Positions 1,017-23,953 of a stretch of 24,770 bases of DNA are shown piece by piece. Below the pieces are notes generated by a model. That model made no database searches, was not told the origin of the DNA, and was given only the letters and a program-made list of their open reading frames with translations. The position numbers and the translations under genes were made by a program. Location of the stretch: the IMG/VR virus record IMGVR_UViG_3300020473_000119, positions 1 to 24,770 of that record; one strand, 5' to 3'. The DNA is from a virus. Position 1 is the first letter of the stretch. Each line of letters starts with the position of its first letter.

Positions 1017-1023
1017 TATTTAG
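1017..1023 (-). promoter_or_regulatory. Candidate T4-type late promoter (CTAAATA)
   Basis: The minus strand reads CTAAATAC, overlapping the stop codon of the giant gene and lying 22 bases before the ATG at 994. T4-like late promoters are a single -10-type box (TATAAATA in T4, NATAAATA/CTAAATA variants in cyanophages). The same heptamer at nearly the same distance precedes gp25. Short AT-rich motif, so moderate support only. Confidence 0.4.
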
Positions 1024-7000: not shown

Positions 7001-10000
7001 CAGTCTGACCAATACCAGGAATAGTTTCAGTAGCAATACCAATATTAGTACTACTTCCCAATCCAATAGGTTCGTATGTAAGTTTTTCGCCAGTAACAAA
7101 GTAATGGTTCGGTAACTTAATTGTATTATCTAAAACATTAACAATTGCAGGATCACTTCCATCAAATTCTCTTTCAAAAATAGGATAATTGTTATGAGTT
7201 AGATTAAATGCTCTCTTAATATCACTATGAGTACCTTCATAAGTACCAGATTCAGATTGTATTAGTGCATTATCAAAAGTAATTTGATCTTGTAAATCAT
7301 CCTGAACCTTAAGGGCATTCATGAAATATGTTATTGAACTTGCTTCATTTGCAGGTGGAGTAAATGTTACTTCTACAAATGAAGTTCCACCTGGATTCTT
7401 ATCAAGTCTATAACCAAATGTACCCAATCCAGCAACATCATTATGACTTAAAATTCCCCATTCGGCTTCGTATACTTCACCAGTTTGCATTCCTTCATTA
7501 TAATCATCAATAATCATATGTTCACTGAAATATCTTATAGAACTAGCATCACCAAAGTTACCACCATTCAGAGTTTCAACATATGCCATGAAATATGCAC
7601 CATCATATCCATCAGTATTTGGATCCAATTGAGTTGGATACTTCATAATTACTTGAGGAGTTGGTGTACCTGATGCAGATATAGTAATACGATCACTCTC
7701 TAAACGAGCATGTTTCATATTAGTTGTACAAGCAGTACCAACAGTTCCAGTTTTAGTAGTGTTATAATTAAATTCCTTAATGATAGTGTTAATTACAGTA
7801 AGAACTCTAAAGAACTGCTGTCCTGTTCCTGAAGTTGTAAGATCTATTGCAATATTCTCTTTTGCATTTTCTTCTGTTGTCGCTAACTGAATAATATCCT
7901 CACTTACATTGATAACATAATAAGTTGTACCGTCAGTAAGACCACCAATCGGTAATGCACCTTCCGTATACTTTAATCCAGATCCTGTTGACAATCTATG
8001 ATTTATCATAGTAATTGTGTCATCAGTATCATTAACTTCAGAAGGTTCTACTGTAAATAATCTATTAGTTGCAGGGAAAGGAATAAAGTCAATCTTAGCA
8101 TTAGCACCATCAAGATAAGCATAATATGTTCCCATACCAGCAGATGCAACTTCCCCAACATCAGTGGTTATTTGAGGATATTCGATTATTTCAATCTTAC
8201 CGAATGCATCAATTATGAAATTGAGTTCATCCATTTCATATTCATTACTTGATCCCGTAATTTCTACGAGGACTTTTCCAGCAGTAATGCTATCATTAGT
8301 ATTATCAAATTCGGCAATAGTAGTAGTTCCACCTGAAATATCAAAACTACCAGTATCGATTAAAGTTCTACCAATAGTTGTTGTACCAATTCCTGCTAAA
8401 TTATCATCAATATTGTAAGATAAGCATGTAATATCAAAATCATTTACAGTACTTCTTGTTGGATAAAATAATAACTGTCCATCAGTCCCTTGTACTGTGA
8501 AATCAAATGTTCCAAGATCATATTCAGTTTCTACTCTTGCATATTGACTGATATAAGCATTGTAGTTGTCATTAACAATATCAACAACCATAATCTGTCT
8601 TTCGCCAAGATATCTTTTATCTCTAACGTAAGTAATATACTTCTGTGCTCTTACATCTGATAATGTAAAGTTACTTACTACACTGAATGGAGTAGGTCTA
8701 GGATTACTATTAAATGTTGGACTTATATCATCAATAGAAAGTACTCTGTTACCAATAGACTCAAAGTAATCAGTAAGTGTCTTACTTGTAAATCTTATTT
8801 CATTAGACAGTGTGCTATTACCAATTTGTAATGAATTTTCACTTACTAAATCAAAATCATGAACACAATTTAAGTTACCAACTCCAATACACTCTGATAT
8901 TACATCAGAATATGTAAGAGCAGTAGTTACACCAATAACCATAGATGCAGGTACATGATTTTCGACACCTGATCCACCACCTTTAATATAATACCCAGAT
9001 CCACCTTCAGGTAATGAAGAATCGGAAATTACTTCATAATCAGAATATTTCTTAAATCCTAATGTATGGTTTAATGTCGATACTACATCTTGCCAGGTAT
9101 CATAAGCAATTCTAGATTTTAATGAATATGAGAAATTCTGATAATATAGACTATCTTGCAATCTCTGCTGATTATCATCTAAGAACCCAGAATTAGATTC
9201 CCATCCACTGGATATTTTTGAGGAAACATCCAAATTTATACTAGAATCAAATGTTCTTATAGAAGACGTAATTCCAGATGCAGCAGAAGATTCACCAGTA
9301 ACTAACTCATTAGTAACAAATTTATCATTAGAAACAACTTTTAATACTCCAGTAATGGGATTCCAGGATTCTACAGTACCAGTTGCACTAGGTGATGTTA
9401 AAACTTCATTGCTAAAGAAATCATTATTCTTTAGGGTAACATCAAATATTGGAAAATCTCTTTCTGGAATTACTCTACCAACAGAATTAATTGGATCATA
9501 TTGTCCTGGTTCCTGTCCAGAAGGTAACATTCCTTCTAAATTGAAGAATATAGATCCAATACCACCAAGATTTGGAGTAGTCTTACTGACAGTAAACATC
9601 TTATAGTCATATGCTGATGAGTTGAATCCAAATCCAGTAGATCCAACACCAACACTAACATTCTCAATTAAGAACTGGGTTCCAATATCAAAAGGGAATA
9701 CATCACTAAATCCAGTATTAAATCCAATTACAACTTCTTTAGTTGCTGTAGTAAATCCTATAGTAGCAATACCAATTCCATTAGTATTATTAATAGGTAA
9801 GATTATTGGAGGAACAGGACTAACATTAGACTTATTTTTAATTACTGATACCTGATCATCCCCTAATTTATATTTTAATTCAATATCATCAATTCTTTCC
9901 TTAGTTGATCCATCAAAAACTAATAAAGTAGGTGCTTTAATATATCCATTACCTACAGAAGTAATACCAACAGACTCTATTCTAGAAAGTGAATTTAAGA

Positions 10001-13000
10001 ATAATGTTTGAGGTAAATTCGTAGTTGGTCTTAAAGTATTATCTGATGGGAAATCAAATCCAATATCATTAACTTTAGTAGTCTTAATTTGACCGATAGA
10101 AGTACTAATTGGATTAACTATTGCACCACTACCAGAAATTGATGCAACTGAAGTAATTCCAGGCAATGAATAGTAATTAGCACCACCATTTACAATACTA
10201 ATTTCAGCAATAGCACCAACAGCACTTCTTGATGATGTTTTATAAGATAATTCTGGATTTTCGTTCTTATATGATGTTACTTCAGGTAATGAACCAACCG
10301 TAAAATCAAATTTATTAGTATCCGCAATAGCAACTATTCTTCTTCCACTAAAGAAACTATCCTTAACTTCTATTTTATTGCTATCAAATACTTCCTTATC
10401 AGGTTGAATTTCTTCTTTAACTGGTGGAAGATCTGTTTCATATAATGGAGTTAAATTATAATAAAGTGAATCTGGAGAATACTTATCTATTGTTATAGTA
10501 ACAGTAGCAGTTGAGTTTATACCAGCTATTCCATTTCTAACAATATCAGTAACTCTATTATTCCAAGGTTCAGTAAAATTATTATCAGTAAAGAAATCAA
10601 GCTCAAATGCTGAATATGGTTGAGAATCTCTTATAAATGCTAAACTAGAATCTCCAACATCAAATACAAGTGTAGAATCCTTATATGCATTAAGTGGTGG
10701 ATTTATTGGTCCAATATTTCCAGCAGTTGCACTTGTAATATTAACAAAATTAGGTTTAAATTGTTGTGCTTCCCAAAGAGTAGGACATAATTTAATTGTA
10801 TCAACATCTTGAACATAGAGATAATATATTCTATTATTCTCCAATCCACCAGAAGGACTTATAGCAGTATAAACAACCTTTTGTTCGGTTACAAATCCAT
10901 GATTTTTTATTGTAATTGAATCCTTTTCAAGATTAACATCAGTATCTGCAAATGCTACTTCATTAACAATAAGTCTCCTGTTAAAATCATTATACTTAAC
11001 AAAATAAGTAGATGCAACACCTGGATTTACATTAACAATTACTTCATCACCATTTGATAAACCATGATCTTCATCTAATGCAGCAGTTGTTAAATGTCTA
11101 GTTACAGTTGCAGTAATTTGTTCGTAATTTGTCTTAAAACTATGAGCCTCAAATGGAGTAGAAGGTGCAGTAAATAGTAGCGTTGTAGAGTCCTTATATG
11201 CCTCTGCAAGACCTTGGAAAGTACCTGTGCTACCAATACCTACCCTAACAGTAGATAAACCAATTAAGTTGTCATTTATCTTTGCAACAAATAATTTTTT
11301 ACCATCTTCTAGGGGACTAGGAGTTGATACATTATAATAACCTGCTGTTATAACACCAACCGTAGCAATACCAATTCCCTCTACACCCTCAAACATAGGA
11401 AGTGAAGGAGAATAGGTTACTTCATCACCAGTACTTAATTTATGTGCTGGTAAGTAAATAGATCTTGTTGCGATATTTAATATAGATGCTCCTGCTCCTG
11501 GATTATTAATATATGCAGTATGAGTTAATCCAATAGTAAGACCAAATCCAACACTTTCTGCAGGATCAAAATAATATTGAGTATTCTTTTTACCTGTAAA
11601 TGTAGTACTTAACCCTGCAGGTATAGTGAATTTCTTTGATTCTTCTACAATCGGAGTATTAGTCTGAAGTGAAGAATTTGTAGAAAGACCAGGATCTACA
11701 TTAACATTTCTTAAAACCCGTATTCTAGAAGATCTTTCATCCTTATTAAGTACTTGAATCCTTTCTGGTTGATCGAAAAATCCTGCAGCATCACCAACCT
11801 CAAAAGTATCATTAATACTTACCCAATCAAAATTACCTCTAGCATTAAAGTAAGTAATAATTCCCGTCATCTCTATATCAGAAGCACCAGCAACTGTTGT
11901 TCCCAATCCAACTAAAGTAAATGATCCCGTTTCAACTTTTATAGGATATACTCCTTCTATACCAGAGGATGTAGTAGATAAACCACTAATACTTACTAAA
12001 TTACCATTTAAGAAGTTATGGGGTTCATTAGTAAGTATTTCATAAGAATTTGATGGATATATTTCACAATCTGTAATTGTTGAAGTAGCAACACTAATAG
12101 TATCAAATCTCTTACCTTCTACCATAGTAACTCTGGCAGAAGCTCCTGATCCTTTTGTGCCTAAATTATCAAAACGAATTGTATCACCTACACTATAATC
12201 TTTACCACCTGTATCAATTCCAATAGATTCTATTCTACCTGGAGCAACACCTGTAATATCTACAGTTTGTTTTAGTTCATTTGGTAAAGAAATATATCCA
12301 TAATCTACACCTTCTTCATGTAAATTATTTGGAGTCGTGTTTCTTACCCAATTAGTTTCAGAAATATCATATTCATCTTGATTAGACTTCTTATCAAAAT
12401 TAAATTCATTAGGTTTTGACTTAAATTTATCACCAATTAAATAAGGGAATGAAGGTTGCTTATATCCAACAAATTGACCAGAAGTTGCAATATCTTCCTC
12501 AACTGTTGCAAAATATGCATAAACACCTTCTGGAAATTCAGGAGTTACGCAAAATCTACCATTATTTTCATCAAGAACTGTTTCATCCGAGACCTTTTGG
12601 TAATTATAATCTTCTACAAAAAATCCTTCAGGTGCAAATGGAGGTCTATTTGCTAATGATACTGCATCTCTACTATTATACCCAGATTTCATCTGAGCAA
12701 TTATTCCACCAGCTTTTGTTATATAACCATAAGGACCATAAATTGGATTGCCATCATATGCCCATCCAATAATAGGAGAATGTTGTGAAGAAGTATTTTC
12801 ATTACCACCAAGGTCTTTAGACAGATCATAACTGCCGTACATTGTCCTACCAACCTGATCAACAGAGAATACCCTTTCTCTTAATTTTCTTGGAGCATAT
12901 AAATGAGAATATTGAAGTGTTTCTTCTGAATTAATCCCATCTACCAAATATCCATCATCGACTGTAAATTTATTAATATTTCTACTAACTAAATTAACAT

Positions 13001-16000
13001 TCCAAGACTGTAAATTGGACCTAAAATTAGCACCACTACCTGCAGGAATTATATTAATATAAGTATTACCCTGAACATAATTTACACCACCTTCAACAAC
13101 ATTAATAGAAGTTATAGATCCATTAGTAATAATTGGTGTTAAAATAGCACCACTTCCATTTCCTATTATATCTAAATCAACCGAAGTATAATCTTTACCT
13201 GGATTTTTAATTAAAATATCAACAATACTACCATTATTAACAACTGCTTCTATTTGAGCATTTGTGCCTCCAACTAATGTTACTAGTGGTTGTTTTTCTA
13301 GATTAATAATATCAGATGATCCATATCCAACTCCATTATTAGATAATTGAACTGACGTAAGTTCTCCTCTAACTATTGGTTGAACTTGTGCTTCATATGC
13401 TGTAGTAGTAAATCCAGATGTAGTTAACTTAACTTTAATCTCTGGATAATTAAATGAATGAGTTCCTACACCAACAGATGATAAATCTAGATATTGATTT
13501 GTATTATAATAATAGTTGGCATAAGTACCTCCTACACCGACCTGAGAGAGCTTAAATGTATTCTCATTAACCTTTGTGACATAATAGTCATTTCCGCTTG
13601 TTAAACCGCCTATAGGGGTCTCCTGAGAGGTATATGTAATCCTTTCACCAGAGGAATAACCATGATTACTAATATTAATAGTATTGAGAGATGTACTTAT
13701 TCCACTAATTCCAGTTACTCGCTTTTTATTTTCATATCCTGTACCTGAATTAACAATATTAATCGATTCTAATACACTCTTATTAGCATAAGACTTAATT
13801 ATCTGATTACCTGTACCATATGAAGTAAATGTAACTGTATTAAAACCTACAATTGCTTCCCATGGCTTATTATGAAGTCTAATCTTATAATCATTAATAA
13901 CATCAACATAATAATTTGATGCGGTACTTAATCCACCAACTGCTGTTTCACTATCACTAATATAAACAATTCTTTCACCAGTCAGGAATTTATGTTTTTG
14001 AGTAAAATTAATAAGAGAATTAGCTTGACCTAATATAATTCTTTCACCCTTTTGAGTAGCATCAAATTTAACTTGATGTGGGATAAGTTTCATATTTGGA
14101 GTCAATACTGCTCCAAATCCATTACCACCACTAATAGTAATAATAGGTTTTTCATGATAATCAAAACCAGGATCAACAATTCTAACTTCCTTTATAGAAC
14201 CCGATACTGATACATGACCAGTTGCACCTGTTCCTACATTATCATCAATTTTTAATGGTGGTGGATTAATTACATCATAATCAGATCCATTTGATAATAA
14301 ATCTACACTCTTAACTTCACCATGATAAATGTAATCCCTAGATTTATAATTAAGAATTTCTACACCATTAATAAGAATACCAGTAAATCCTGCTTTTGTT
14401 TTTGTCTCTTGCCCTTCATTATTGGGAGAATCTATTTCTCTTAATATTTTTTGTGTTTCTAAAATCTTATTATTATAAACACTTTTCTGAATTTTATTAT
14501 CAGTTACTGTTATTGGTGCATTATCTGGAATACTAAGATATCTATTATTTAAAAGATCTGATTTAGATTTTGCAAGTTTTATAGTATTAAGATCAACTCT
14601 TTCAATAAAGTATATTCCTTCATCAACAAGACCAGGACCATCTACTATTCTACTAGTAGGTTGACCAGCAGAGTTAATAAAATTCTGAGTTATTTTATTA
14701 GGTGAATAGTATATCGAATCCCCAGTATAGAATGCATGATCCTGAGATGATATTTCCCAATTAGTTCCACTAAAAGTTCCACTAAAAGTGACTGAATGAT
14801 CATAAGCATCTAATGGTTGAGTACCATAAGAAGGTATTGATGGCGATGCAACCAATAACTTATCATTATCCAAATAAACATTCTGTATATCAGTAGAAAA
14901 TACTGAAATACCTGCACCAATTGCATTACTACCACTAGGTACTGCTTTTGATATAGTTCTTCTTATATTATAGACATCAGAAGTAGAAAGTGCTCCTTGT
15001 CCACTTATAACAAAGGATTTAGAAGAAGAAATTGATACAATTTCACATTTTCTAGGTGAACTATCTCTACCATTAAGTACTGCAGCATCACCTACCTTAA
15101 AGAAATGATCTTTATTTAAGGTAATTTCCCAAGTTTGGTCAGAAGCATCAACTAACTCAAATGAATTTACTACGTAAACAGGGCATCCATTATAAAACCA
15201 ATTATTAGACTTAAATCCAGTAGCACCAATACCTAACGTATTAATTTTTATTTTATCACCAGATTCATATCCATAAGCATCAGAATCAAAATTTAACGAA
15301 TTAATAACAGAATTTATCTTTATTTTAATAACTTTATTCTGATCTAAAGAAGAATATCCATATGCATACGTGTTTATACCAACATCAGTGCCATCTAATA
15401 TAACACCATTCAGATTTGTACATCCATAGAACTGTGTTAATGACTTTGAGGTATAAGATACGATTCCAATTGATAAATTTTTATATTGTATTGATAATTC
15501 ACCACTATTTGGGAATCCTACTGTAGAATCTACATCTAAAACAGTAGTTCCTATACCCACATTACCTATTACTCTTGTTTTAGAATGAACTGAAAACTTA
15601 CCATAAATTGCACCATCAGTCATTCCACTTCTACTATAACCAGAATCTACCGCAAGTTTATAAAATGTCTTAGCAACACCAGCAGTTCCTGTGGATACTT
15701 TCTCAACATATGTTATTGGAGCATATGCTTTAGTGATAGTATCTTCATATGGATCCTGGAATAGGGTAGCAGTACCTAATTCTTCAGGGTCACCAGAAAA
15801 ACTTTCTACTATAAAGTTGTCAGCAACCTTATAATTAGCATTTGATGGTGTAAAAAGGTTATCTCTAGGCTTTATAACACTTACATCTTGATCATAAAGT
15901 GCCTTAAAGAGTATCTTAAAGGACTTATCAGTACCTTTAGAAGAATAAAAATCACTTGATTGCTTTATAAAAACGTTTTGATTAAGATTTGGTGTTAATT

Positions 16001-16556
16001 CTCTTTCACCAATACCTGGTAATATTTGCTGTTTTGTCTTTGTTAAGAATTTTTTTAAGAATAATACACTTAAATTTTCTATTTCAGTGCCTTTTGAGTG
16101 TGCTTGCCTCTCAGTACTCCTAAAAACTAAATTTTCTGCGTTTGCTTCTTCAGTAAAAGAGGTAATACCACAAAATCCTCTATGACAATTAACAAAAGTT
16201 GTTATTGTTTTGCTTTCATAAGTTATAATTTCGTCATCAATCTTAATTAAACCATAAGTATCGGGAAATCCATTGGTTCCTTCAGGTGTTTTTATTAAAT
16301 CTACAACAATATCAGTATCAGTAATCTCTACATCAGTACCTAAAATAATAGAATCTACTATATTTGTAGTATTATCAAGCTTAATATACTTATCAATATT
16401 CTGTATTAGATCAACAGGAGCACCATCAAACTCTTGAGCAATGTAATATTGCTTTAAGAAGTCGTTAATTAGAGGATAATCTTCCTTAACATAAGAAGGA
16501 AGTTGATTTTCAACTATATTATTAAACTGTATTCTTTTATCTGTGGTGGATATCAT
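1020..16556 (-). CDS. Giant baseplate-associated virion protein, 5178 aa, YHYH-type domain and YPR tandem repeats
   Basis: This is one uninterrupted frame of 5178 codons, starting at an ATG five bases after the gp6 stop with no clear ribosome-binding site, which suggests translational coupling. Residues 1-245 form a globular, non-repetitive head (KRIQFNNIVENQLPSYVKED, later SSKGTDKSFKILFKALYDQD), the sort of region expected to bind the baseplate wedge. The rest is beta-rich, with many GxGY / NxGxGY turns. Around residues 1200-1355 is a YHYH-type domain (GWAYDGNPIYGPYGY, then NGRFCVTPEFPEGVYAYF). Residues about 3660-4370 carry eight C..D...YPR repeats. Paired motifs NDIFQEPG (about 3435) and NDILQVPG (about 4670) suggest internal duplication. 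The position after gp6 matches T4 gene 7, but the length is about five times that of gp7 and orthology is not shown; large proteins here in cyanophages are sometimes annotated as VrlC-like. A virion role is well supported by context; the exact role is inferred. Confidence 0.85.
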   Translation of the reverse strand: MISTTDKRIQFNNIVENQLPSYVKEDYPLINDFLKQYYIAQEFDGAPVDLIQNIDKYIKLDNTTNIVDSIILGTDVEITDTDIVVDLIKTPEGTNGFPDTYGLIKIDDEIITYESKTITTFVNCHRGFCGITSFTEEANAENLVFRSTERQAHSKGTEIENLSVLFLKKFLTKTKQQILPGIGERELTPNLNQNVFIKQSSDFYSSKGTDKSFKILFKALYDQDVSVIKPRDNLFTPSNANYKVADNFIVESFSGDPEELGTATLFQDPYEDTITKAYAPITYVEKVSTGTAGVAKTFYKLAVDSGYSRSGMTDGAIYGKFSVHSKTRVIGNVGIGTTVLDVDSTVGFPNSGELSIQYKNLSIGIVSYTSKSLTQFYGCTNLNGVILDGTDVGINTYAYGYSSLDQNKVIKIKINSVINSLNFDSDAYGYESGDKIKINTLGIGATGFKSNNWFYNGCPVYVVNSFELVDASDQTWEITLNKDHFFKVGDAAVLNGRDSSPRKCEIVSISSSKSFVISGQGALSTSDVYNIRRTISKAVPSGSNAIGAGISVFSTDIQNVYLDNDKLLVASPSIPSYGTQPLDAYDHSVTFSGTFSGTNWEISSQDHAFYTGDSIYYSPNKITQNFINSAGQPTSRIVDGPGLVDEGIYFIERVDLNTIKLAKSKSDLLNNRYLSIPDNAPITVTDNKIQKSVYNNKILETQKILREIDSPNNEGQETKTKAGFTGILINGVEILNYKSRDYIYHGEVKSVDLLSNGSDYDVINPPPLKIDDNVGTGATGHVSVSGSIKEVRIVDPGFDYHEKPIITISGGNGFGAVLTPNMKLIPHQVKFDATQKGERIILGQANSLINFTQKHKFLTGERIVYISDSETAVGGLSTASNYYVDVINDYKIRLHNKPWEAIVGFNTVTFTSYGTGNQIIKSYANKSVLESINIVNSGTGYENKKRVTGISGISTSLNTINISNHGYSSGERITYTSQETPIGGLTSGNDYYVTKVNENTFKLSQVGVGGTYANYYYNTNQYLDLSSVGVGTHSFNYPEIKVKLTTSGFTTTAYEAQVQPIVRGELTSVQLSNNGVGYGSSDIINLEKQPLVTLVGGTNAQIEAVVNNGSIVDILIKNPGKDYTSVDLDIIGNGSGAILTPIITNGSITSINVVEGGVNYVQGNTYINIIPAGSGANFRSNLQSWNVNLVSRNINKFTVDDGYLVDGINSEETLQYSHLYAPRKLRERVFSVDQVGRTMYGSYDLSKDLGGNENTSSQHSPIIGWAYDGNPIYGPYGYITKAGGIIAQMKSGYNSRDAVSLANRPPFAPEGFFVEDYNYQKVSDETVLDENNGRFCVTPEFPEGVYAYFATVEEDIATSGQFVGYKQPSFPYLIGDKFKSKPNEFNFDKKSNQDEYDISETNWVRNTTPNNLHEEGVDYGYISLPNELKQTVDITGVAPGRIESIGIDTGGKDYSVGDTIRFDNLGTKGSGASARVTMVEGKRFDTISVATSTITDCEIYPSNSYEILTNEPHNFLNGNLVSISGLSTTSSGIEGVYPIKVETGSFTLVGLGTTVAGASDIEMTGIITYFNARGNFDWVSINDTFEVGDAAGFFDQPERIQVLNKDERSSRIRVLRNVNVDPGLSTNSSLQTNTPIVEESKKFTIPAGLSTTFTGKKNTQYYFDPAESVGFGLTIGLTHTAYINNPGAGASILNIATRSIYLPAHKLSTGDEVTYSPSLPMFEGVEGIGIATVGVITAGYYNVSTPSPLEDGKKLFVAKINDNLIGLSTVRVGIGSTGTFQGLAEAYKDSTTLLFTAPSTPFEAHSFKTNYEQITATVTRHLTTAALDEDHGLSNGDEVIVNVNPGVASTYFVKYNDFNRRLIVNEVAFADTDVNLEKDSITIKNHGFVTEQKVVYTAISPSGGLENNRIYYLYVQDVDTIKLCPTLWEAQQFKPNFVNITSATAGNIGPINPPLNAYKDSTLVFDVGDSSLAFIRDSQPYSAFELDFFTDNNFTEPWNNRVTDIVRNGIAGINSTATVTITIDKYSPDSLYYNLTPLYETDLPPVKEEIQPDKEVFDSNKIEVKDSFFSGRRIVAIADTNKFDFTVGSLPEVTSYKNENPELSYKTSSRSAVGAIAEISIVNGGANYYSLPGITSVASISGSGAIVNPISTSIGQIKTTKVNDIGFDFPSDNTLRPTTNLPQTLFLNSLSRIESVGITSVGNGYIKAPTLLVFDGSTKERIDDIELKYKLGDDQVSVIKNKSNVSPVPPIILPINNTNGIGIATIGFTTATKEVVIGFNTGFSDVFPFDIGTQFLIENVSVGVGSTGFGFNSSAYDYKMFTVSKTTPNLGGIGSIFFNLEGMLPSGQEPGQYDPINSVGRVIPERDFPIFDVTLKNNDFFSNEVLTSPSATGTVESWNPITGVLKVVSNDKFVTNELVTGESSAASGITSSIRTFDSSINLDVSSKISSGWESNSGFLDDNQQRLQDSLYYQNFSYSLKSRIAYDTWQDVVSTLNHTLGFKKYSDYEVISDSSLPEGGSGYYIKGGGSGVENHVPASMVIGVTTALTYSDVISECIGVGNLNCVHDFDLVSENSLQIGNSTLSNEIRFTSKTLTDYFESIGNRVLSIDDISPTFNSNPRPTPFSVVSNFTLSDVRAQKYITYVRDKRYLGERQIMVVDIVNDNYNAYISQYARVETEYDLGTFDFTVQGTDGQLLFYPTRSTVNDFDITCLSYNIDDNLAGIGTTTIGRTLIDTGSFDISGGTTTIAEFDNTNDSITAGKVLVEITGSSNEYEMDELNFIIDAFGKIEIIEYPQITTDVGEVASAGMGTYYAYLDGANAKIDFIPFPATNRLFTVEPSEVNDTDDTITMINHRLSTGSGLKYTEGALPIGGLTDGTTYYVINVSEDIIQLATTEENAKENIAIDLTTSGTGQQFFRVLTVINTIIKEFNYNTTKTGTVGTACTTNMKHARLESDRITISASGTPTPQVIMKYPTQLDPNTDGYDGAYFMAYVETLNGGNFGDASSIRYFSEHMIIDDYNEGMQTGEVYEAEWGILSHNDVAGLGTFGYRLDKNPGGTSFVEVTFTPPANEASSITYFMNALKVQDDLQDQITFDNALIQSESGTYEGTHSDIKRAFNLTHNNYPIFEREFDGSDPAIVNVLDNTIKLPNHYFVTGEKLTYEPIGLGSSTNIGIATETIPGIGQTDRLPRTVYAVKLDEEKIKLASTAENALLGTPEILDITSVGIGTTMKFVTERQNTKVLVALDNIIQSPVVSTALTTHLDQQLFTTDNLVQVGSITSIFGGDLIKIGDEIMKVEGVGIGTANGIRVRRPWLGTKVGYAATSALVTKVQGNYNIVDNVLNFVEAPYGNVPFSSTTNEPDERDWVGIETGSSFQGRSFMRSGIPDTSSEAYSNNFIFDDISANFDAIDSTFTLKTGGGNFTGVEQDNAIVLINDIFQEPGLVGDYFLEESAGITSVTFVGTARTITNDVGISSFPRGGVIVSVGSKAGLGYQPLVVAGGTANVSIAGTIGSVSIGNSGSGYRVGIQTVVNVGVVTTPNIPNKVVSIGTATISDGHVTGINVTNEQVFHAPSEIQNVTYTRTNGVTTVTTINPHGLSESEMVVLSGIAFTCDYAPAVSIYGAEYDNTTGIMTVTTTTSHGIGSDKQVIFTGLGMTCGMDNGATTHIYPRGKDIAYNRPITILDDGAHYTVSNATYDPYTGKMSVTTSTNHGFTNNDFIKFKENSISFRCNKDDFETVHSYPRKGDYSIDRWLKISNVSANGFDVYVLDFTERPSSNTTIHVFHSALESGLIHNNGKITVDVGAAGASDQYAHTWAGGNAVDAIKTGGDHTHRFVSATSGAVIKGGDYNHTFVSAIDGGVNVTGIGTTTPTDATYDAEKGELVLTIPNHGYTVDDTITVNADAITFTCEMDGNTTRHSYPRITDPVAGIATAITGTSQHTLTVNVGTSPLVKYDVSDATYTGSTGELVLTIENHSLRGSSTFTISNAEYDPISGIMTMTSAFHGLSTGDRIKIADNAITFRCDQDGYNSDHSYPRAAVHKGSGVVEPDPAHDKWLPVSKVDENKFAVRVVDNVPSSNVTNHVYQTSTPNGITKAGESVRIAKDSLTFTCSMDDYVSPHSYPRGTDPIYETSVSVASTTNNTVTLNVGVSTSVNYTVTNADYTASTGIMTMTLSEPHSLTTGTNIGITTESLTFTCTKDGNATQHKYPRKPDPTYNGVDVIGIGNLVQKNVTNATYIPSNGNLVLTIGANHGLKIGDAVKIKTDSLAFTCAMDSDSTTHTYPRVTDPIHDKFVNVASANQSAGTITLNVGTTPEVSHDVSDATYNPDSGEMELTIGLHTLSPGEGIRLVANSLNFSCNNAGVQNRTYPRASGANTSGGADYAYNTSLEILAVTTTTILINVNGGQGAISHNYPHTFISATPGAVKSGGNYNHTYVGGTVANAVSVGSTVLSVNIGVSTVPTFYKSGGVVQQAIVAPRAKNLSPSGVDPAVDGSVVLKVLDSTSFEVNSGLSTRHHIYARGGKVDPFLDVVIDEPLSYSNIPLVYSGSAPAGVGTYATADIIVGQGSSVISFSINNSGYRYGVGETLTVSSGGTLGIPTTSDFEEFQLTVQDIFTDEFNGWSMGMLQTLDNVDHLFDSKRVTFPIKVGGNIIAIKSSEGSNINVEDTLLVFVNDILQVPGKGFRFDGGSVITFGEAPKKGDTSKILFYKGSGDVDVVFRNIIDTVKRGDSLQIENDPEKDQPYYMTEEERIATQIISIDTAQTDPYPGPGNTDDANLLRPVIWCRQTEDMIIDETQVGKARELYEPVISPTAYITRPISAGSTEVYVDNLRPLFDGKNENNVDPYLLFQKKVTFVDMETQIGASATATLSGDGIISVTVTDGGVGYSTTPTVSIQNPIGIGSTALATATINNTGSVSGVTVSYAGTGYNSIPQVLIAPPTLSEETKPLNWFAGDSGTIVGFGTTTKANSDYLMFDFHIPLESDLRDGSLVGSAITLSQIQQGDYFVVTNSAVGNASTSIKSYDPNDVVVAIGTEFVNNVYCVNSVENKTVNVPGVGVTMVRRVNSRVTGLSTITFDSTGITMDNEIYTMDNSVVGSGNSYTGDITTPLGIGNYSWGKLQTKSKLQNNYKFYGANGIGVGEYSATGENADDETIIIEHSATGIHTSSIVRRFEPLRSINYIV
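3440..5570 (-). repeat. Tandem protein repeats (C..D...YPR module) inside the giant gene
   Basis: The translated product shows eight copies of a unit of very roughly 70-100 residues: a hydrophobic strand ending in F(T/R)C, then D, then H(S/T/K/I)YPR, a variable linker, LNVG, and (A/N)xYxxxTGxMxLT followed by HxLxxG. The YPR signatures occur as HIYPRGKD, HSYPRKGD, HSYPRITD, HSYPRAAV, HSYPRGTD, HKYPRKPD, HTYPRVTD and RTYPRASG. A degenerate HIYARGGK lies just beyond, near 3010-3020. Copies differ in linker length, so this is an old duplicated domain rather than a recent DNA duplication. Confidence 0.75.
12490..12960 (-). other. YHYH-type domain segment within the giant protein
   Basis: Residues about 1200-1355 contain GWAYDGNPIYGPYGYITK and, some 70 residues on, LDENNGRFCVTPEFPEGVYAYF. 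This is the order of conserved elements in YHYH domain proteins (DGxPIYGPYGY, then NGRFCxTPExPxGTYHYH). The terminal signature here reads YAYF instead of YHYH. Assigned by eye from motif order. Confidence 0.65.
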
Positions 16557-18509: not shown

Positions 18510-18911
18510 TTACCTAGTTGGCTGCAAAACGAATTGTAACTGTTGTTGTGGAACGTCTGCTCCTATAATTTCATATATTATAGTGACATCATATGAATTG
18601 TTATCAAAATTAGGGTCTGCTATAACATCGATTAATTCAACCCTTGGTTCATAATTTTTAATTGATTGCTCAATTTCACTAACAATTTGGGATGCAGAGA
18701 TATTATCAAGATTCTCAAAAAGCGTTCTATTAATCCTTGACCCAAATGTAGGATCAAAGGGTTTTTCACCAGGAAGAGTGAATACTATATTACGTACAGA
18801 ACGTGCAATAGCATTTTCGTTCTTAATTCCTATTAAATCACCGTTCAGTGGATTAGACTGAAAGGTCATACTAATATCCTTAAAACCTTGATTGACTCTT
18901 TCTAGAGGCAT
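18510..18911 (-). CDS. 25: Baseplate wedge protein gp25 (gp25/GPW family)
   Basis: At 133 residues it matches T4 gp25 (132 aa). gp25 belongs to the gp25/GPW family found in contractile tails and type VI secretion baseplates; it sits at the inner wedge and contacts the first sheath ring. The family core is visible: the GEKPFDPTFGSRINRTLFEN segment at about residues 48-67, and the EPR triad in KNYEPRVELIDV at about residues 90-100, followed by strands ending in a Q-rich tail. The upstream neighbour is a 53-aa gene and the downstream neighbour is gp6 after a one-base gap. The ATG lacks an obvious ribosome-binding site but has late-promoter-like boxes 24-40 bases upstream, so this is probably the first gene of the late baseplate transcript. 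Confidence 0.95.
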   Translation of the reverse strand: MPLERVNQGFKDISMTFQSNPLNGDLIGIKNENAIARSVRNIVFTLPGEKPFDPTFGSRINRTLFENLDNISASQIVSEIEQSIKNYEPRVELIDVIADPNFDNNSYDVTIIYEIIGADVPQQQLQFVLQPTR

Positions 18912-19111: not shown

Positions 19112-19621
19112 TTAAGAGCTCTCTTTATTTATTTGAGGAAAAGGTATCAGTCCTATATTGCCTGTAAGTGCATGTGGGGGTACATCCTTTAATATATCAA
19201 ATCCAAGAGTAATTCTATTGGTATCAAAATGAGTATTAGGACTTATAACCTTATGTTCTCTATATCCTGGACCAATATAAACATTACCAACTTCATTTAT
19301 TATTTCATATTCAGGATTTCTAAAAATTGTTTTTGTATTATGAGGTCTAATAGAAATATAACCATGTATTGGCCATTGATGTCCGTGCCAATCTAATAAA
19401 CCTCCTTTTTCATGATAATTTAACCAACTTTGCATCCATAAGTCCCCATTACCATTATAATCATATACGAATTCATTTAACTCGCAATAAAGGTCATAAA
19501 AGACTTTAGTTGCTGATGTAAGTCCAAATACATTATACTTACCATATGACCAGGTAAAATCAGAACCAAAAATATCATGATGCTGAGTAGTATTAACCGC
19601 ATGGTCAATAACATTACTCAA
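19112..19621 (-). CDS. 2OG-Fe(II) oxygenase-like protein, 169 aa
   Basis: The product has the layout of small viral 2-oxoglutarate/Fe(II)-dependent oxygenases, which use O2 and 2-oxoglutarate to hydroxylate a substrate. A metal-site strand (DWHGHQWPIHGYISIRP, His79 and His81) is followed by TIFRNP, then GNVYIGPGYREHKVISP (His123) and NRITLGFDI with Arg136, the usual 2OG-binding arginine. The first motif is HxH rather than the textbook HxD, so the exact iron ligands are uncertain. The only start in frame before residue 60 is a TTG at 19621; the frame is open back to a stop near 19687 without an ATG or GTG. It lies between small phage genes and gp25. Such genes are common in cyanophages, with unknown substrates; a virion or host protein is possible. 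Inference from motifs only. Confidence 0.7.
   Translation of the reverse strand: MSNVIDHAVNTTQHHDIFGSDFTWSYGKYNVFGLTSATKVFYDLYCELNEFVYDYNGNGDLWMQSWLNYHEKGGLLDWHGHQWPIHGYISIRPHNTKTIFRNPEYEIINEVGNVYIGPGYREHKVISPNTHFDTNRITLGFDILKDVPPHALTGNIGLIPFPQINKESS
19126..19133 (-). promoter_or_regulatory. Candidate late promoter (AATAAATA) before the 53-aa gene
   Basis: The minus strand reads AATAAATA inside the last codons of the oxygenase-like gene, 22 bases from the ATG at 19104. It fits the NATAAATA form described for late promoters of T4-like cyanophages. Low-complexity motif; spacing is the main support. Confidence 0.35.
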
Positions 19622-19809: not shown

Positions 19810-20058
19810 TTAACATCCCTCCGAGTCATGTGTGTTTTCATAGTCTTCGACTTCTCTGACAAGAAGTTCTCTTTTCTCTTCACCTGAGAGAGTATCGAGT
19901 TTCGCTGCTACGGATTCTGTCGAGGCACGAACCCGATATTGAACCGAGTCACGCTTCGACAGTTCTGTAAGAATCGCTGCCTGTAGATCCCATAGATCAT
20001 TAGTATCCTTTTTATCTAAGTGGTGTTCTATCCACTCTACGATTGCTTTATCAGTCAT
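19810..20058 (-). CDS. Hypothetical protein, 82 aa
   Basis: The gene starts at an ATG overlapping the stop of the glycosyltransferase-like gene by one base (TAATG) and ends directly against the next small gene, so it sits in a tight operon. The product is highly charged and helical: MTDKAIVEWIEHHLDKKDTN, then an AILTELSKRDSVQYRVRAST segment and an acidic C-terminus (REVEDYENTHDSEGC). There is no membrane segment or signal. I do not recognise the family; it looks like a small helical accessory protein. Its base composition, like that of the gene before it, is visibly richer in G and C than the structural genes. Confidence 0.8.
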   Translation of the reverse strand: MTDKAIVEWIEHHLDKKDTNDLWDLQAAILTELSKRDSVQYRVRASTESVAAKLDTLSGEEKRELLVREVEDYENTHDSEGC

Positions 20059-20861
20059 TAGATAATACGAGATTTTTCGTGCCCTACACGAATACGAGGA
20101 TCACACCAGATCTCGAAACCTGCATCCATTGCATCTAAGCAGAATGATACATCTTCACCACACATATCCTGGACACTGCCACTCTCGAAGACTTGCATCT
20201 TAGGAGCAAACCAAGGGTACTTCATCTTCTCATCCTCGAAGACTCCCTTCTCTATCATTAACCATCCGAATCCTGCATAGTCTACTGTGAAAGGCTTCTT
20301 ACGCTTGCTGATAGACTCAATGGTTTCGTGGTTCATAACTCCCCCATTCTTACGGAAGTCATCTTCATCTAACCAGTGTGCGACAGATGTAGTTTTGCCA
20401 TCCTCTGTGCAATACCATCCTGAGACGATTTTCTTCTTCTTAGTATCGTCAATTGAACCATCCTCAGTGACCGCATCAGCAGGAATCGCCATATCGCATA
20501 ATTGCCAGAACTTGTTAGTATCAAAGACTATATCCGAGTCAATCCATAACTGGTAGTCGTATTCTAGTTTACCATCCCAAGGTATCTGATCTGGTCCACG
20601 TAATACATTTGCTCCAAGACACTTACATCTTGCGAAGTTTACCATAGAAGAGTAGTCCTGGGATATCTGAATAGACATACCGTTCTGAACCATATCAAAG
20701 CATAACTGCACAAAGTTCTTCAGATATATGTAAGATACTCCTCTACCTGGAAGACAAAATACTACTGTCTTACCTTTCATTCTCTGTTTGATAGCAGGAA
20801 TATCCCAGTCTTCTTTTTTAGATGATGGTTTATTCGCTTTTACTGTAAATCCTTTTGCCAT
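20058..20861 (-). CDS. GT-A glycosyltransferase-like protein, 267 aa
   Basis: Several features fit a GT-A fold nucleotide-sugar transferase. After a basic N-terminus there is a strand (KTVVFCLPGRGVSYIYLKNF), then SSMVNFARCKCLGANVLRG, then LWIDSDIVFD with a DSD (DxD metal-binding type) at residues 108-110. An AGFGWLMIEKGVFE segment and a C-terminal GEDVSFCLDAMDAGFEIWCD motif (residues 235-254) ending in DPRIRVGHEK follow. The (G/E)ED plus late His arrangement is typical of family-2-type enzymes. It would transfer a sugar from a nucleotide sugar, perhaps to DNA, a virion protein or a host surface glycan; the acceptor cannot be told. The ATG has AGGA upstream and lies behind a consensus sigma-70 promoter. 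It is the first gene of a five-gene run toward gp25. Confidence 0.75.
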   Translation of the reverse strand: MAKGFTVKANKPSSKKEDWDIPAIKQRMKGKTVVFCLPGRGVSYIYLKNFVQLCFDMVQNGMSIQISQDYSSMVNFARCKCLGANVLRGPDQIPWDGKLEYDYQLWIDSDIVFDTNKFWQLCDMAIPADAVTEDGSIDDTKKKKIVSGWYCTEDGKTTSVAHWLDEDDFRKNGGVMNHETIESISKRKKPFTVDYAGFGWLMIEKGVFEDEKMKYPWFAPKMQVFESGSVQDMCGEDVSFCLDAMDAGFEIWCDPRIRVGHEKSRII

Positions 20862-20912: not shown

Positions 20913-21157
20913 TAGGAATCCTCTTCCCACTCGAACTTATTATACATGTCGATATTCTCCCGAATGACTCTACCTGGTCCCCCAACGCCACACTTTGGTC
21001 CTAACCGAATATAACTTAAATCATCTACTGAATACTTACTCTCTAATAAATCTACCATTACATGTAATAACTCCCATTTCTCCTCAAATTCTTCATGGGG
21101 CAAATTACAATATAATACCTTATCTTTTGCATAGATGTGATAGGTAGTTGAATCCAA
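20909..21157 (-). CDS. Hypothetical protein, 82 aa (TTG start)
   Basis: The frame begins with TTG at 21157 and reads DSTTYHIYAKDKVLYCNLPH, then EEKWELLHVMVDLLESKYSV, then LSYIRLGPKCGVGGPGRVIR and an acidic end. No ATG is present in frame until the middle of the protein, and a stop lies 24 bases upstream of the TTG, so this is the only reasonable start. I recall similar short proteins in marine T4-like phages, without known function. It contains three cysteines and no membrane segment. About 200 bases upstream is a strong sigma-70 promoter (21357-21386), implying a long untranslated leader. It is followed at once by the promoter for the next operon. Confidence 0.75.
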   Translation of the reverse strand: MDSTTYHIYAKDKVLYCNLPHEEFEEKWELLHVMVDLLESKYSVDDLSYIRLGPKCGVGGPGRVIRENIDMYNKFEWEEDSY

Positions 21158-21356
21158 AATTTGTACTGGGGATTTTTTTACATATTATGAAATCCATGTG
21201 GCGTTTTTTATACCACGGAGATTTTTTTTATATCTCTATATCTATCTCTCGATTTGTCACCTCTGTAGGTTAGGGTCTCTATCTTTTTTTATATACGCAA
21301 CGCCCACCGCAACGTTAACACATAAGGGCGGAAATACTGTCAAACCACTGTTAATT

Positions 21357-21386
21357 ATTATAGCATATTAGGGCACTATGTGTCAA
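21357..21386 (-). promoter_or_regulatory. Consensus sigma-70 promoter with extended -10 (TTGACA-N18-TATAAT)
   Basis: The minus strand has TTGACA (21381-21386) and TATAAT (21357-21362), 18 bases apart, with TGC immediately before TATAAT (extended -10). It would drive the 82-aa gene at 21157 after a leader of about 190 bases. The -35 box lies in the loop of a 12-bp hairpin (21368-21398). Confidence 0.85.
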
Positions 21387-21398
21387 ATAGCACCCTAA
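21368..21398 (-). terminator. 12-bp RNA hairpin behind the 42-aa gene, containing a promoter -35 box in its loop
   Basis: In minus-strand RNA, arms 21387-21398 and 21368-21379 pair over 12 positions (two of them G-U) around a 7-base loop containing TTGACA. On the plus strand the two G-U positions become mismatches, so the structure favours the minus-strand transcript. It lies 13 bases after the stop of the 42-aa gene. There is no U-run after it, so it may be a processing or pausing hairpin rather than a true terminator. Confidence 0.5.
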
Positions 21399-21411
21399 CA
21401 GTTGTTTACAT

Positions 21412-21540
21412 TTATAACACTGTATCTGCACCCTCCACAATATCATCTAGAACTGCCAAGATTTCATTACCATTGTTTGCATTTTCCAAGAGGAATTCTG
21501 CAAAGTTAGGTGTTACAAACTGTACTGCACTGTTAGACAT
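21412..21540 (-). CDS. Small hypothetical protein, 42 aa
   Basis: The ATG at 21540 opens a 42-codon frame ending in TAA. The product starts MSNSAVQFVTPNFAEFLLEN and continues ANNGNEILAVLDDIVEGADT; it is acidic and mostly helical, with no membrane segment. Two tandem CTCTAAA-N7-TATA elements lie 30-90 bases upstream and a 12-bp hairpin follows the stop, which together delimit a single-gene transcript. The ribosome-binding site is weak. I do not recognise a family with known function. Confidence 0.65.
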   Translation of the reverse strand: MSNSAVQFVTPNFAEFLLENANNGNEILAVLDDIVEGADTVL

Positions 21541-21568
21541 AATTAAGACCTATAATTAAGGTTGATAA

Positions 21569-21588
21569 GTTATACAAACAGTTTAGAG
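21569..21588 (-). promoter_or_regulatory. CTCTAAA-N7-TATAAC element (copy C)
   Basis: CTCTAAA at 21582-21588 is followed after exactly seven bases by TATAAC at 21569-21574 on the minus strand. It is the same geometry as the copies at 21611-21630, 21876-21895 and 23975-23994, and lies 28 bases before the 42-aa gene. Interpreted as a promoter with a phage-specific upstream box. Confidence 0.5.
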
Positions 21589-21602
21589 ACTTACTGCACT
21601 GG

Positions 21603-21637
21603 TCTTATACATTATAGGGACAATTTAGAGGTTCCCC
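21603..21637 (-). promoter_or_regulatory. Long promoter-like repeat (copy A), CTCTAAA-N7-TATAAT
   Basis: The minus strand has GGGGAACC, then CTCTAAA (21624-21630), seven bases, then TATAAT (21611-21616) and GTATAAG. The whole stretch of about 35 bases is nearly identical to copy B at 23967-24001. It precedes the 42-aa gene, upstream of copy C. Confidence 0.6.
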
Positions 21638-21641
21638 ATTG

Positions 21642-21815
21642 TTACCAACTGACTGGAATGTTCAGATCTTCGATAACACTTTCTACACTCTCATTATCCT
21701 GTATATCTAATACTTTATCCCAGTTAATTTGATGTGGATTAAAATCATCTAATGCTTCAATCTCCAGGGTTATTCTATACTTTCTCTTCTGTCCGTAAAT
21801 GTTAGAAACTGACAT
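21642..21815 (-). CDS. Small hypothetical protein, 57 aa
   Basis: The ATG at 21815 starts a 57-codon frame. The product begins MSVSNIYGQKRKYRITLEIE and goes on ALDDFNPHQINWDKVLDIQD, ending DLNIPVSW. The KYRITLEIEAL strand followed by acidic helices suggests a compact alpha/beta fold. I recall similar short proteins in marine T4-like phages, with no assigned role. A TTGACA-N17-TAGACT promoter lies about 30 bases upstream. The ribosome-binding site is poor. It is separated from the next gene by the CTCTAAA promoter elements. Confidence 0.7.
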   Translation of the reverse strand: MSVSNIYGQKRKYRITLEIEALDDFNPHQINWDKVLDIQDNESVESVIEDLNIPVSW

Positions 21816-21845
21816 GAGATTAGAGGAGGGTGAGTGTTAATAAGT

Positions 21846-21874
21846 AGTCTACATTATCTGAACGATTTTGTCAA
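21846..21874 (-). promoter_or_regulatory. Sigma-70-like promoter for the 57-aa gene (TTGACA-N17-TAGACT)
   Basis: A perfect -35 (21869-21874) and a four-of-six -10 (21846-21851) are separated by 17 bases on the minus strand. The start would fall about 25 bases before the ATG at 21815. It directly follows the CTCTAAA-N7-TATAAA element at 21876-21895. Confidence 0.55.
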
Positions 21875-21875
21875 C

Positions 21876-21895
21876 TTTATATACGATATTTAGAG
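21876..21895 (-). promoter_or_regulatory. CTCTAAA-N7-TATAAA element (copy D)
   Basis: CTCTAAA at 21889-21895 is followed after seven bases by TATAAA at 21876-21881 on the minus strand. The seven-base spacer differs from the YTGTYYN spacer of the other copies, so this copy is the weakest. Confidence 0.4.
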
Positions 21896-21951
21896 TTTTT
21901 TGTTGTTATAAACACTTTCAGGACTTGTGTGACTATTTCTCAACAATCTCC

Positions 21952-21980
21952 TTGTATTTTACGAGCGTTTGTGATATAAT
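21952..21980 (+). promoter_or_regulatory. Plus-strand promoter with extended -10 pointing into the DnaA-box cluster
   Basis: On the plus strand TTGTAT (21952-21957) and TATAAT (21975-21980) are 17 bases apart, with TGA just before TATAAT (extended -10). All genes nearby are on the minus strand, so the transcript would be non-coding and run through the DnaA boxes. A CGAGC/GCTCG inverted repeat (21962-21966 with 21981-21985) frames the -10 region. Confidence 0.55.
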
Positions 21981-22163
21981 GCTCGCTAAGATAACGACTC
22001 TAGAGTATATTAATTCCACACAATTTCCACACTAATTAACACCTTTTTAACAAGTATGTGGAAAAGGTATATTTAACGCAACCCTATTTAATTTGCTATT
22101 TATCAACAACTATTAGGTAGTTTTCCACAGATTATTAACACTTATTGTGGAAAAACCTACTAT

Positions 22164-22310
22164 TTAGAGTATATTTTTGACCCTCATTCTGTGTCTATCA
22201 AAATGTGAATTAACAATGAATATTACCTCATCTTCGTTTATACTATCTGTGGGCGTATTAGCGAAATAACTGATAAGATCTTTGACCATATTCTCTCTTA
22301 ATTGTTGCAT
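22164..22310 (-). CDS. Small hypothetical protein, 48 aa
   Basis: The frame starts at ATG 22310, inside the end of the preceding gene (13-base overlap), and ends in TAA at the border of the DnaA-box region. The product begins MQQLRENMVKDLISYFANTP and continues TDSINEDEVIFIVNSHFDRH with a basic end. A second ATG at residue 8 (MVKDL) is an alternative start. There is no membrane segment and no recognised family. Its stop codon lies inside one of the flanking TAGAGTATATT repeats, so it is the last gene before the gene-free region. Confidence 0.6.
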   Translation of the reverse strand: MQQLRENMVKDLISYFANTPTDSINEDEVIFIVNSHFDRHRMRVKNIL

Positions 22311-22465
22311 ATATCCTCACTTAAATACGTTTCACATTGTATTACTTTAGGATCAATATTTGGTACATCTTCGTTGTTACTTAATGCACCTAATACGACC
22401 CATCCGATTAATATCCAAATAAAGAAATTGAGTATCTTAATTGGTAAAAAGAATAATGATTTCAT
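22298..22465 (-). CDS. Single-span membrane microprotein, 55 aa
   Basis: The ATG at 22465 lies 4 bases after the stop of the 77-aa gene. The product starts MKSLFFLPIKILNFFIWILI, with a hydrophobic stretch from residue 4 to about 27 (ending GWVVLGA) that is a clear transmembrane helix or uncleaved signal anchor. A short acidic tail of about 28 residues with two cysteines follows. It would sit in the host inner membrane; holin-like, immunity or envelope roles are possible but not shown. A TATAAT-like box at the end of the upstream gene could give it its own promoter, though no -35 is evident. Confidence 0.65.
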   Translation of the reverse strand: MKSLFFLPIKILNFFIWILIGWVVLGALSNNEDVPNIDPKVIQCETYLSEDICNN

Positions 22466-23605: not shown

Positions 23606-23953
23606 TTATGCACAAACGAGTGAATCTGCGTCTAATAGTATCATCCCATCCCTGAAAAGTGTGGTTTGGTCGTTATAACTTACGAACCAATTCCAGTTTT
23701 TTTGGAATACTTTACAACCGTATTTTACCTCGTCTAGTATAGCATTTAGTCTTGATTTTGTAGTGACTGACTGCCATCCGCAAGAATCAAACTTTACTGC
23801 TCTAGTTTCGTGGCAAAAGGTCGCAATGTGATGACCATGTAAACGCACTTGACTACAATTTGTGTTTGAGTTGTAAGAAACTTGAGTATTTGAGGAAGAC
23901 CAATCAGATTTGGTTCTAATTGCTCTATTCATTTGTGACTCAATTTTTCTCAT
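23606..23953 (-). CDS. Hypothetical protein, 115 aa, cyanophage-type
   Basis: The ATG at 23953 gives 115 residues. An internal ATG at 23932 (MNRAIRTKSDWSSSNTQV) is a good alternative because the first ATG is only about 20 bases from a predicted -10 box. The body reads NCSQVRLHGHHIATFCHETR, then CGWQSVTTKSRLNAILDEVK, then VFQKNWNWFVSYNDQTTLFR. I recall short proteins with the NTQV / LHGxHIAT / WxSxTTKSRLNA / VFQKxxxWF pattern in marine T4-like phages, of unknown function. It has no membrane segment and contains several cysteines and histidines. It is preceded by the long CTCTAAA promoter-like repeat (copy B). Confidence 0.8.
   Translation of the reverse strand: MRKIESQMNRAIRTKSDWSSSNTQVSYNSNTNCSQVRLHGHHIATFCHETRAVKFDSCGWQSVTTKSRLNAILDEVKYGCKVFQKNWNWFVSYNDQTTLFRDGMILLDADSLVCA

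Follow-up and report, generated by a model that had tools for sequence, protein, structure and literature searches.

A conserved array of cyanobacterial DnaA boxes facing an opposing promoter in T4-like cyanophages: a candidate transcription-coupled replication origin

Bacteriophage T4 is the standard example of replication that starts without DnaA. Can a T4-like phage of cyanobacteria carry an origin in which the DnaA protein of its host takes part? The question is raised by the IMG/VR virus record IMGVR_UViG_3300020473_000119, a stretch of 24,770 bases (here called the window) with nearly all of its genes on the minus strand. An earlier note on this stretch, made from its letters and open reading frames (ORFs), had pointed to a cluster of cyanobacterial-type DnaA boxes and had proposed either a DnaA-type origin or a decoy for host DnaA. 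We find that the boxes recur at one conserved place, and our best reading of the locus, held with a little better than even confidence, is a transcription-coupled replication origin assisted by host DnaA. The DnaA-linked origin of the earlier note is thus kept, although an opposing promoter, a conserved block and an AT-rich element had escaped it. The literature that we searched contained nothing joining cyanophages with DnaA boxes and an origin, and no mapped replication origin of a T4-like cyanophage.

The cluster comprises three exact copies of the box TTTTCCACA, to which the 24.8-kb record adds no further copy, together with weaker sites and bounding repeats:

22057-22065, minus strand: exact cyanobacterial DnaA box TTTTCCACA
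22121-22129, plus strand: exact DnaA box, left arm of the inverted pair conserved in the alignment of relatives
22146-22154, minus strand: exact DnaA box forming the right arm of that pair, its start 25 bp from that of the left arm
22023-22031, plus strand: DnaA box ATTTCCACA, one mismatch
22012-22020, plus strand: weak DnaA-box-like sequence AATTCCACA, two mismatches
22100-22108, plus strand: weak DnaA-box-like sequence TTATCAACA, two mismatches to TTTTCCACA
22001-22011, plus strand: TAGAGTATATT, left bounding copy, not common to more distant aligned loci
22165-22175, plus strand: TAGAGTATATT, right bounding copy

The exact boxes, the bounding copies of TAGAGTATATT and the composite direct repeat TTTCCACA-N3/4-ATTAACAC (22024-22042 and 22122-22141) all stand as the earlier note had described them. 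Of its three near matches, the site at 22023-22031 deserves the name, but the other two are weaker than claimed. The label of iterons finds no support, for what is conserved is two DnaA boxes in inverted orientation and not a run of evenly spaced direct repeats. A terminator or hairpin formed by the pair was considered as well and ruled out by the same-orientation boxes of S-SM2, Syn1 and two fetched loci (L020, L021). The clustering withstood comparison with shuffled sequence: none of 300 dinucleotide shuffles of the window gave even two exact boxes within 150 bp. Sites with one mismatch to TTTTCCACA are not in excess over the whole window (7 versus 11 expected), so the signal lies in the clustering and not in the total number.

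TTTTCCACA is the cyanobacterial DnaA box, bound by domain IV of DnaA in Cyanothece (PMC4674748), and it ranks with the commonest 9-mers found upstream of dnaN in picocyanobacteria (10 of 31 genomes). A Bac_DnaA_C domain was found in none of 22 phages, which rules out a phage-encoded DnaA among them and therefore leaves host DnaA as the candidate binder of the array.

The boxes belong to a larger predicted module, which goes beyond the earlier note and consists of opposing promoter, conserved block, AT-rich element and boxes. Its additional parts in the window are the following:

21952-21980, plus strand: predicted sigma70-type promoter with extended -10, TTGTAT-N17-TATAAT (TGTGATATAAT at 21970-21980)
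21981-21995, plus strand: conserved block GCTCGCTAAGATAAC, directly after the -10
22084-22104, no strand assigned: AT-rich element CTATTTAATTTGCTATTTATC, candidate unwinding element, aligned in relatives with TATATTTATT..CATTTATAA

The promoter is oriented antisense to the genes and points into the box cluster; relatives have TTGACA-N17/18-TGTGnTATAAT at the same position, followed by a block with the consensus GCTAAGA[C/T]NAC. A strict motif of promoter plus block gave 28 matches, all on the antisense strand and 0 on the sense strand, and a narrower form was absent from 442 kb of downstream sequence. In 36 of 86 loci, Syn9, Syn1, Syn19, Syn33 and S-ShM2 included, the block in a degenerate form points toward the cluster, as compared with 4-14 occurrences per whole genome. 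When two divergent groups were aligned, the order of elements was promoter, block, ACATTTA, AT-rich ATTTATT element and inverted box pair. AT content is raised at the clusters in 70 of the 86 loci, but in the window the local stability falls only in the 3rd-7th percentile, that of the AT-rich element in the 3rd-4th.

The position of the boxes among relatives was followed by means of three neighbouring genes:

20058-20861, minus strand: phrog_1574 (T4-GC 102), flanking marker gene, ~1.2 kb from the boxes
18510-18911, minus strand: gp25 baseplate wedge gene, downstream landmark
23606-23953, minus strand: phrog_554, flanking marker gene on the opposite side of the boxes from phrog_1574

In 80 IMG/VR loci fetched via phrog_1574, exact copies of TTTTCCACA all lie ~0.57-2.1 kb upstream of that gene, with none elsewhere. 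Among 22 complete phage genomes, in each of which gp25 was located, 11 named phages have close TTTTCCACA pairs at a distance of 1.6-7.6 kb upstream of gp25 (S-SM2, P-TIM68, S-PM2, Syn9, Syn1, Syn19, Syn33, S-SM1, S-SSM5, S-ShM2 and P-SSM7); no such pair precedes gp25 in T4 or the Pelagibacter phage HTVC008M, whose hosts are not cyanobacteria. An unbiased count of 9-mers upstream of gp25 in Kyanoviridae placed TTTTCCACA at the top, with close pairs in 13 of 22 regions, the runner-up reaching 4. IMG/VR was also scanned for the inverted pair TTTTCCACA-N8..30-TGTGGAAAA, with the reversed pattern as control, and the first 120 matches listed were used. Of these, 59 contain gp25, gp6 or phrog_1574, and in all 59 marker-bearing loci among the matches listed the pair lies upstream of the marker; the reversed pattern gave 0 of 120 among the matches listed.

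A further set, fetched via phrog_554 and cleared of any locus whose box sequences also occurred in the first set, contained 133 boxes versus ~10 expected, and 33 of its 72 loci have clusters. The block points toward the cluster in 9 loci of this set, and reversed and permuted control motifs do so in 0; one member with promoter and block (L557) shares its contig with L011, which is very closely related to the window. When all loci fetched via phrog_554 are counted, the cluster is usually downstream of that gene (36/41). The sole relevant match of direct DNA similarity in GenBank phages was 29 bp at the promoter and block in AG-345-O18, and the conservation is thus one of short elements in order. 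As for the density of boxes elsewhere and the conservation in relatives, both of which the earlier note had asked about, exact boxes concentrate at this locus in most relatives and conservation is strong, with a minority of cyanophages having no boxes.

How does this arrangement compare with known origins? T4 oriF (ori uvsY) and oriG depend on a promoter with an A+T-rich unwinding element downstream of it, and the RNA of an R-loop primes the leading strand there (PMC3016281). The likeness is that of another T4-like phage with a promoter followed within roughly 100-200 bp by an A+T-rich element (PMC3016281): the predicted promoter of the module reads into such an element, and oriF, too, adjoins gene 25. 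In contrast, the T4 origins use MotA-dependent middle promoters where the cyanophage module has sigma70-type -35 and -10 sequences, no DnaA boxes have been described for them, and R-loops are a feature of T4, whereas for the cyanophage module they are a proposal. Synteny with the uvsY-25 interval of oriF was dropped as an argument; the gp25 side is shared, but in cyanophages tens of kb separate uvsY from gp25. T4 oriE resembles the locus in having short repeats clustered in the origin region of a T4-like phage and differs from it in that these are iterons, the cyanophages having an inverted DnaA-box pair with variable extra boxes. P1 oriR and further replicons of plasmids or phages also contain host DnaA boxes, but they depend on a phage initiator, RepA, with its iterons. 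The presence of host DnaA boxes at a phage origin is common to P1 and the cyanophages, but oriR belongs to a plasmid prophage stage and not to a lytic T4-like phage. A predicted single theta origin of Syn9 is cited in a review (PMC2984593); Syn9 has the module (boxes at 52565-52597, and the block).

The module thus looks like a T4-style origin of promoter plus unwinding element to which host DnaA boxes have been added, and from this we infer a sequence of transcription, DnaA binding, unwinding and priming. Early in infection, host RNA polymerase would initiate at the back-facing promoter (21952-21980, plus strand), and the transcript would run through the AT-rich element and the array of host-type DnaA boxes. 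Host DnaA would bind the boxes, chiefly the inverted pair at 22121-22154, and would help to open the AT-rich DNA or to stabilise it once open. The transcript could then act as leading-strand primer in an R-loop, and the phage primosome would load. Many T4-like ocean cyanophages carry DnaA boxes and a predicted back-firing promoter at this one conserved place, and probably start replication there. A more general proposal, that across cyanomyoviruses a T4-type transcript-primed origin recruits host DnaA through host-consensus boxes, with the DnaA part lost in some lineages, is in our judgement evenly balanced between true and false.

Several observations weigh against a DnaA-assisted origin. Neither cumulative GC skew nor skew at fourfold sites, the check proposed in the earlier note, switches at the locus, which is not what a single bidirectional origin predicts, and GC skew was dropped as origin evidence for want of support; a T4-like change to recombination-dependent replication could blur such a signal. 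The AT-richness is mild in the window. No box pair was found near gp25 in Bellamy, P-SSM2, P-SSM4, S-SSM7, S-RSM4 or P-HM1, and P-TIM68 has its boxes behind the promoter. SynMITS9220M01 (L115) and two further loci (L049, L053) have the promoter, a GCTAAGA/CCTAAGA block and the AT-rich element with no recognisable boxes; DnaA boxes are therefore common and not universal, and given these relatives DnaA may be auxiliary or regulatory. In four loci (L016, L026, L050 and L055) a DnaA box lies between the two elements of a perfect TTGACA/TATAAT promoter, in its 17-bp spacer, for example TTGACA-GTTTTCCACAGAGGACT-TATAAT upstream of phrog_1574, which suggests a DnaA-regulated early promoter.

The last of these points concerns unwinding. 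Cyanobacterial oriC, next to dnaN, shares with the phage arrays the same TTTTCCACA box in clusters of few copies (PMC4674748). Unlike them, the host carries CTACTACTA trios in 10 of 31 genomes and a geometry of box and trio in 4 of 31, whereas that geometry occurs in only 1 of 86 phage clusters and CTACTA is only about 2-fold enriched; conversely, the phage arrays have a promoter and a conserved leader block in addition. DnaA-trio geometry as at host oriC was accordingly set aside for the phage arrays, and the module is not a copy of host oriC. Detectable trios are absent from 15% of bacterial genomes (PMC8287927). Helicase loading may instead proceed via the phage's own loader gp59, which is annotated in many of these phages. 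In the picocyanobacterial oriC regions upstream of dnaN (L273-L307), CTACTACTA matches the DnaA-trio of the bacterial basal unwinding system.

The strongest rival, which we regard as tentative and clearly less probable than the origin, is a DnaA-controlled transcription switch: the array would regulate the back-facing early promoter, the sense promoters toward the gp25 region, or both, perhaps with production of a noncoding or antisense RNA, and replication would not start there. Promoters on both strands flank the array, the one in gene direction being this:

21846-21874, minus strand: promoter-like TTGACA-N17-TAGACT on the gp25 side of the cluster

Sense promoters also occur near the boxes of Syn9, Syn19, Syn33, S-SM1, S-SSM5, P-SSM7 and S-SM2. 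A switch would further account for the four spacer boxes and for the survival of promoter and block where boxes are lost, and a sequence like NATAAATA within the AT element might serve as a late promoter; the minus strand of the element reads GATAAATA (22104-22097), similar to the core of a T4-type late promoter. Against it, the number of boxes, their spacing and their distance to the block vary widely (25-213 bp), as would not be usual in a classical operator. Past the start block the predicted transcript shows little conservation, and it matches no Rfam family, so that membership of a known family of structured noncoding RNA was not found, and the window has no plus-strand ORF >69 aa closely after the promoter. 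As a separate observation, most relatives have a near-perfect sigma70 promoter, TTGACA-N17-TATAAT, ~53 bases before the start of phrog_1574.

The decoy of the earlier note, in which the boxes titrate host DnaA and so block initiation of host replication, is conceivable but less well supported than the DnaA-linked origin, and we consider it unlikely. Only host DnaA is available to bind, and late in infection the many phage genomes, each bringing several boxes, could rival the few copies of oriC for it. Titration, however, would work without a fixed position, an inverted pair or a linked promoter, block and AT element, yet conservation extends to every one of these, and 2-4 boxes per genome are few early in infection. 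Slightly more improbable still is recognition of TTTTCCACA by some phage or host factor that is not DnaA, for which the many unknown small phage proteins encoded at the locus might be cited; the 9-mer is nonetheless identical to the host DnaA box letter for letter and enriched at host oriC, and the pair is absent from the examined relatives of non-cyanobacterial hosts, T4 and HTVC008M. A chance cluster or local low-complexity artefact can practically be dismissed, for although one-mismatch sites show no excess over the whole window, the shuffles never reached two exact boxes in 150 bp, and retention of the cluster in dozens of divergent phages refutes it.

If the origin assisted by host DnaA is real, the start of replication in some of the most abundant ocean viruses would be tied to the initiator of the host chromosome. 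The module gives an exact position in the isolated phages Syn9, Syn19, Syn33, S-ShM2, S-PM2 and P-SSM7, and the natural box-less relatives are ready comparisons for the contribution of DnaA.

The gene context bears out the assignment to a T4-like phage: the proteins of the window include a gp6 70% identical to that of S-SM2, and gp25. The stretch taken to be gene-free is so at the scale of longer genes, 21157-22302 being without any ORF of at least 60 aa. Short minus-strand ORFs of 57 aa (21642-21815), 48 aa (22164-22310) and 55 aa (22298-22465) flank the cluster, and the clear gap is for this reason ~21816-22163. Immediately after gp6 lies an ORF of 5178 aa (1020-16556, minus strand), at the place where S-SM2 and Bellamy have an annotated giant gp7-like baseplate wedge protein. 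Two other fetched stretches, both from the scan for the inverted pair and both without gp25, gp6 or phrog_1574, are rich in boxes: L368, with a GC content of 0.60 and 7 exact boxes, may be another kind of cyanophage, and L374 has 8 boxes with the block facing them. In S-PM2 (L549), three DnaA boxes at 19177-19333 overlap annotated tRNA-Asn and tRNA-Leu genes.
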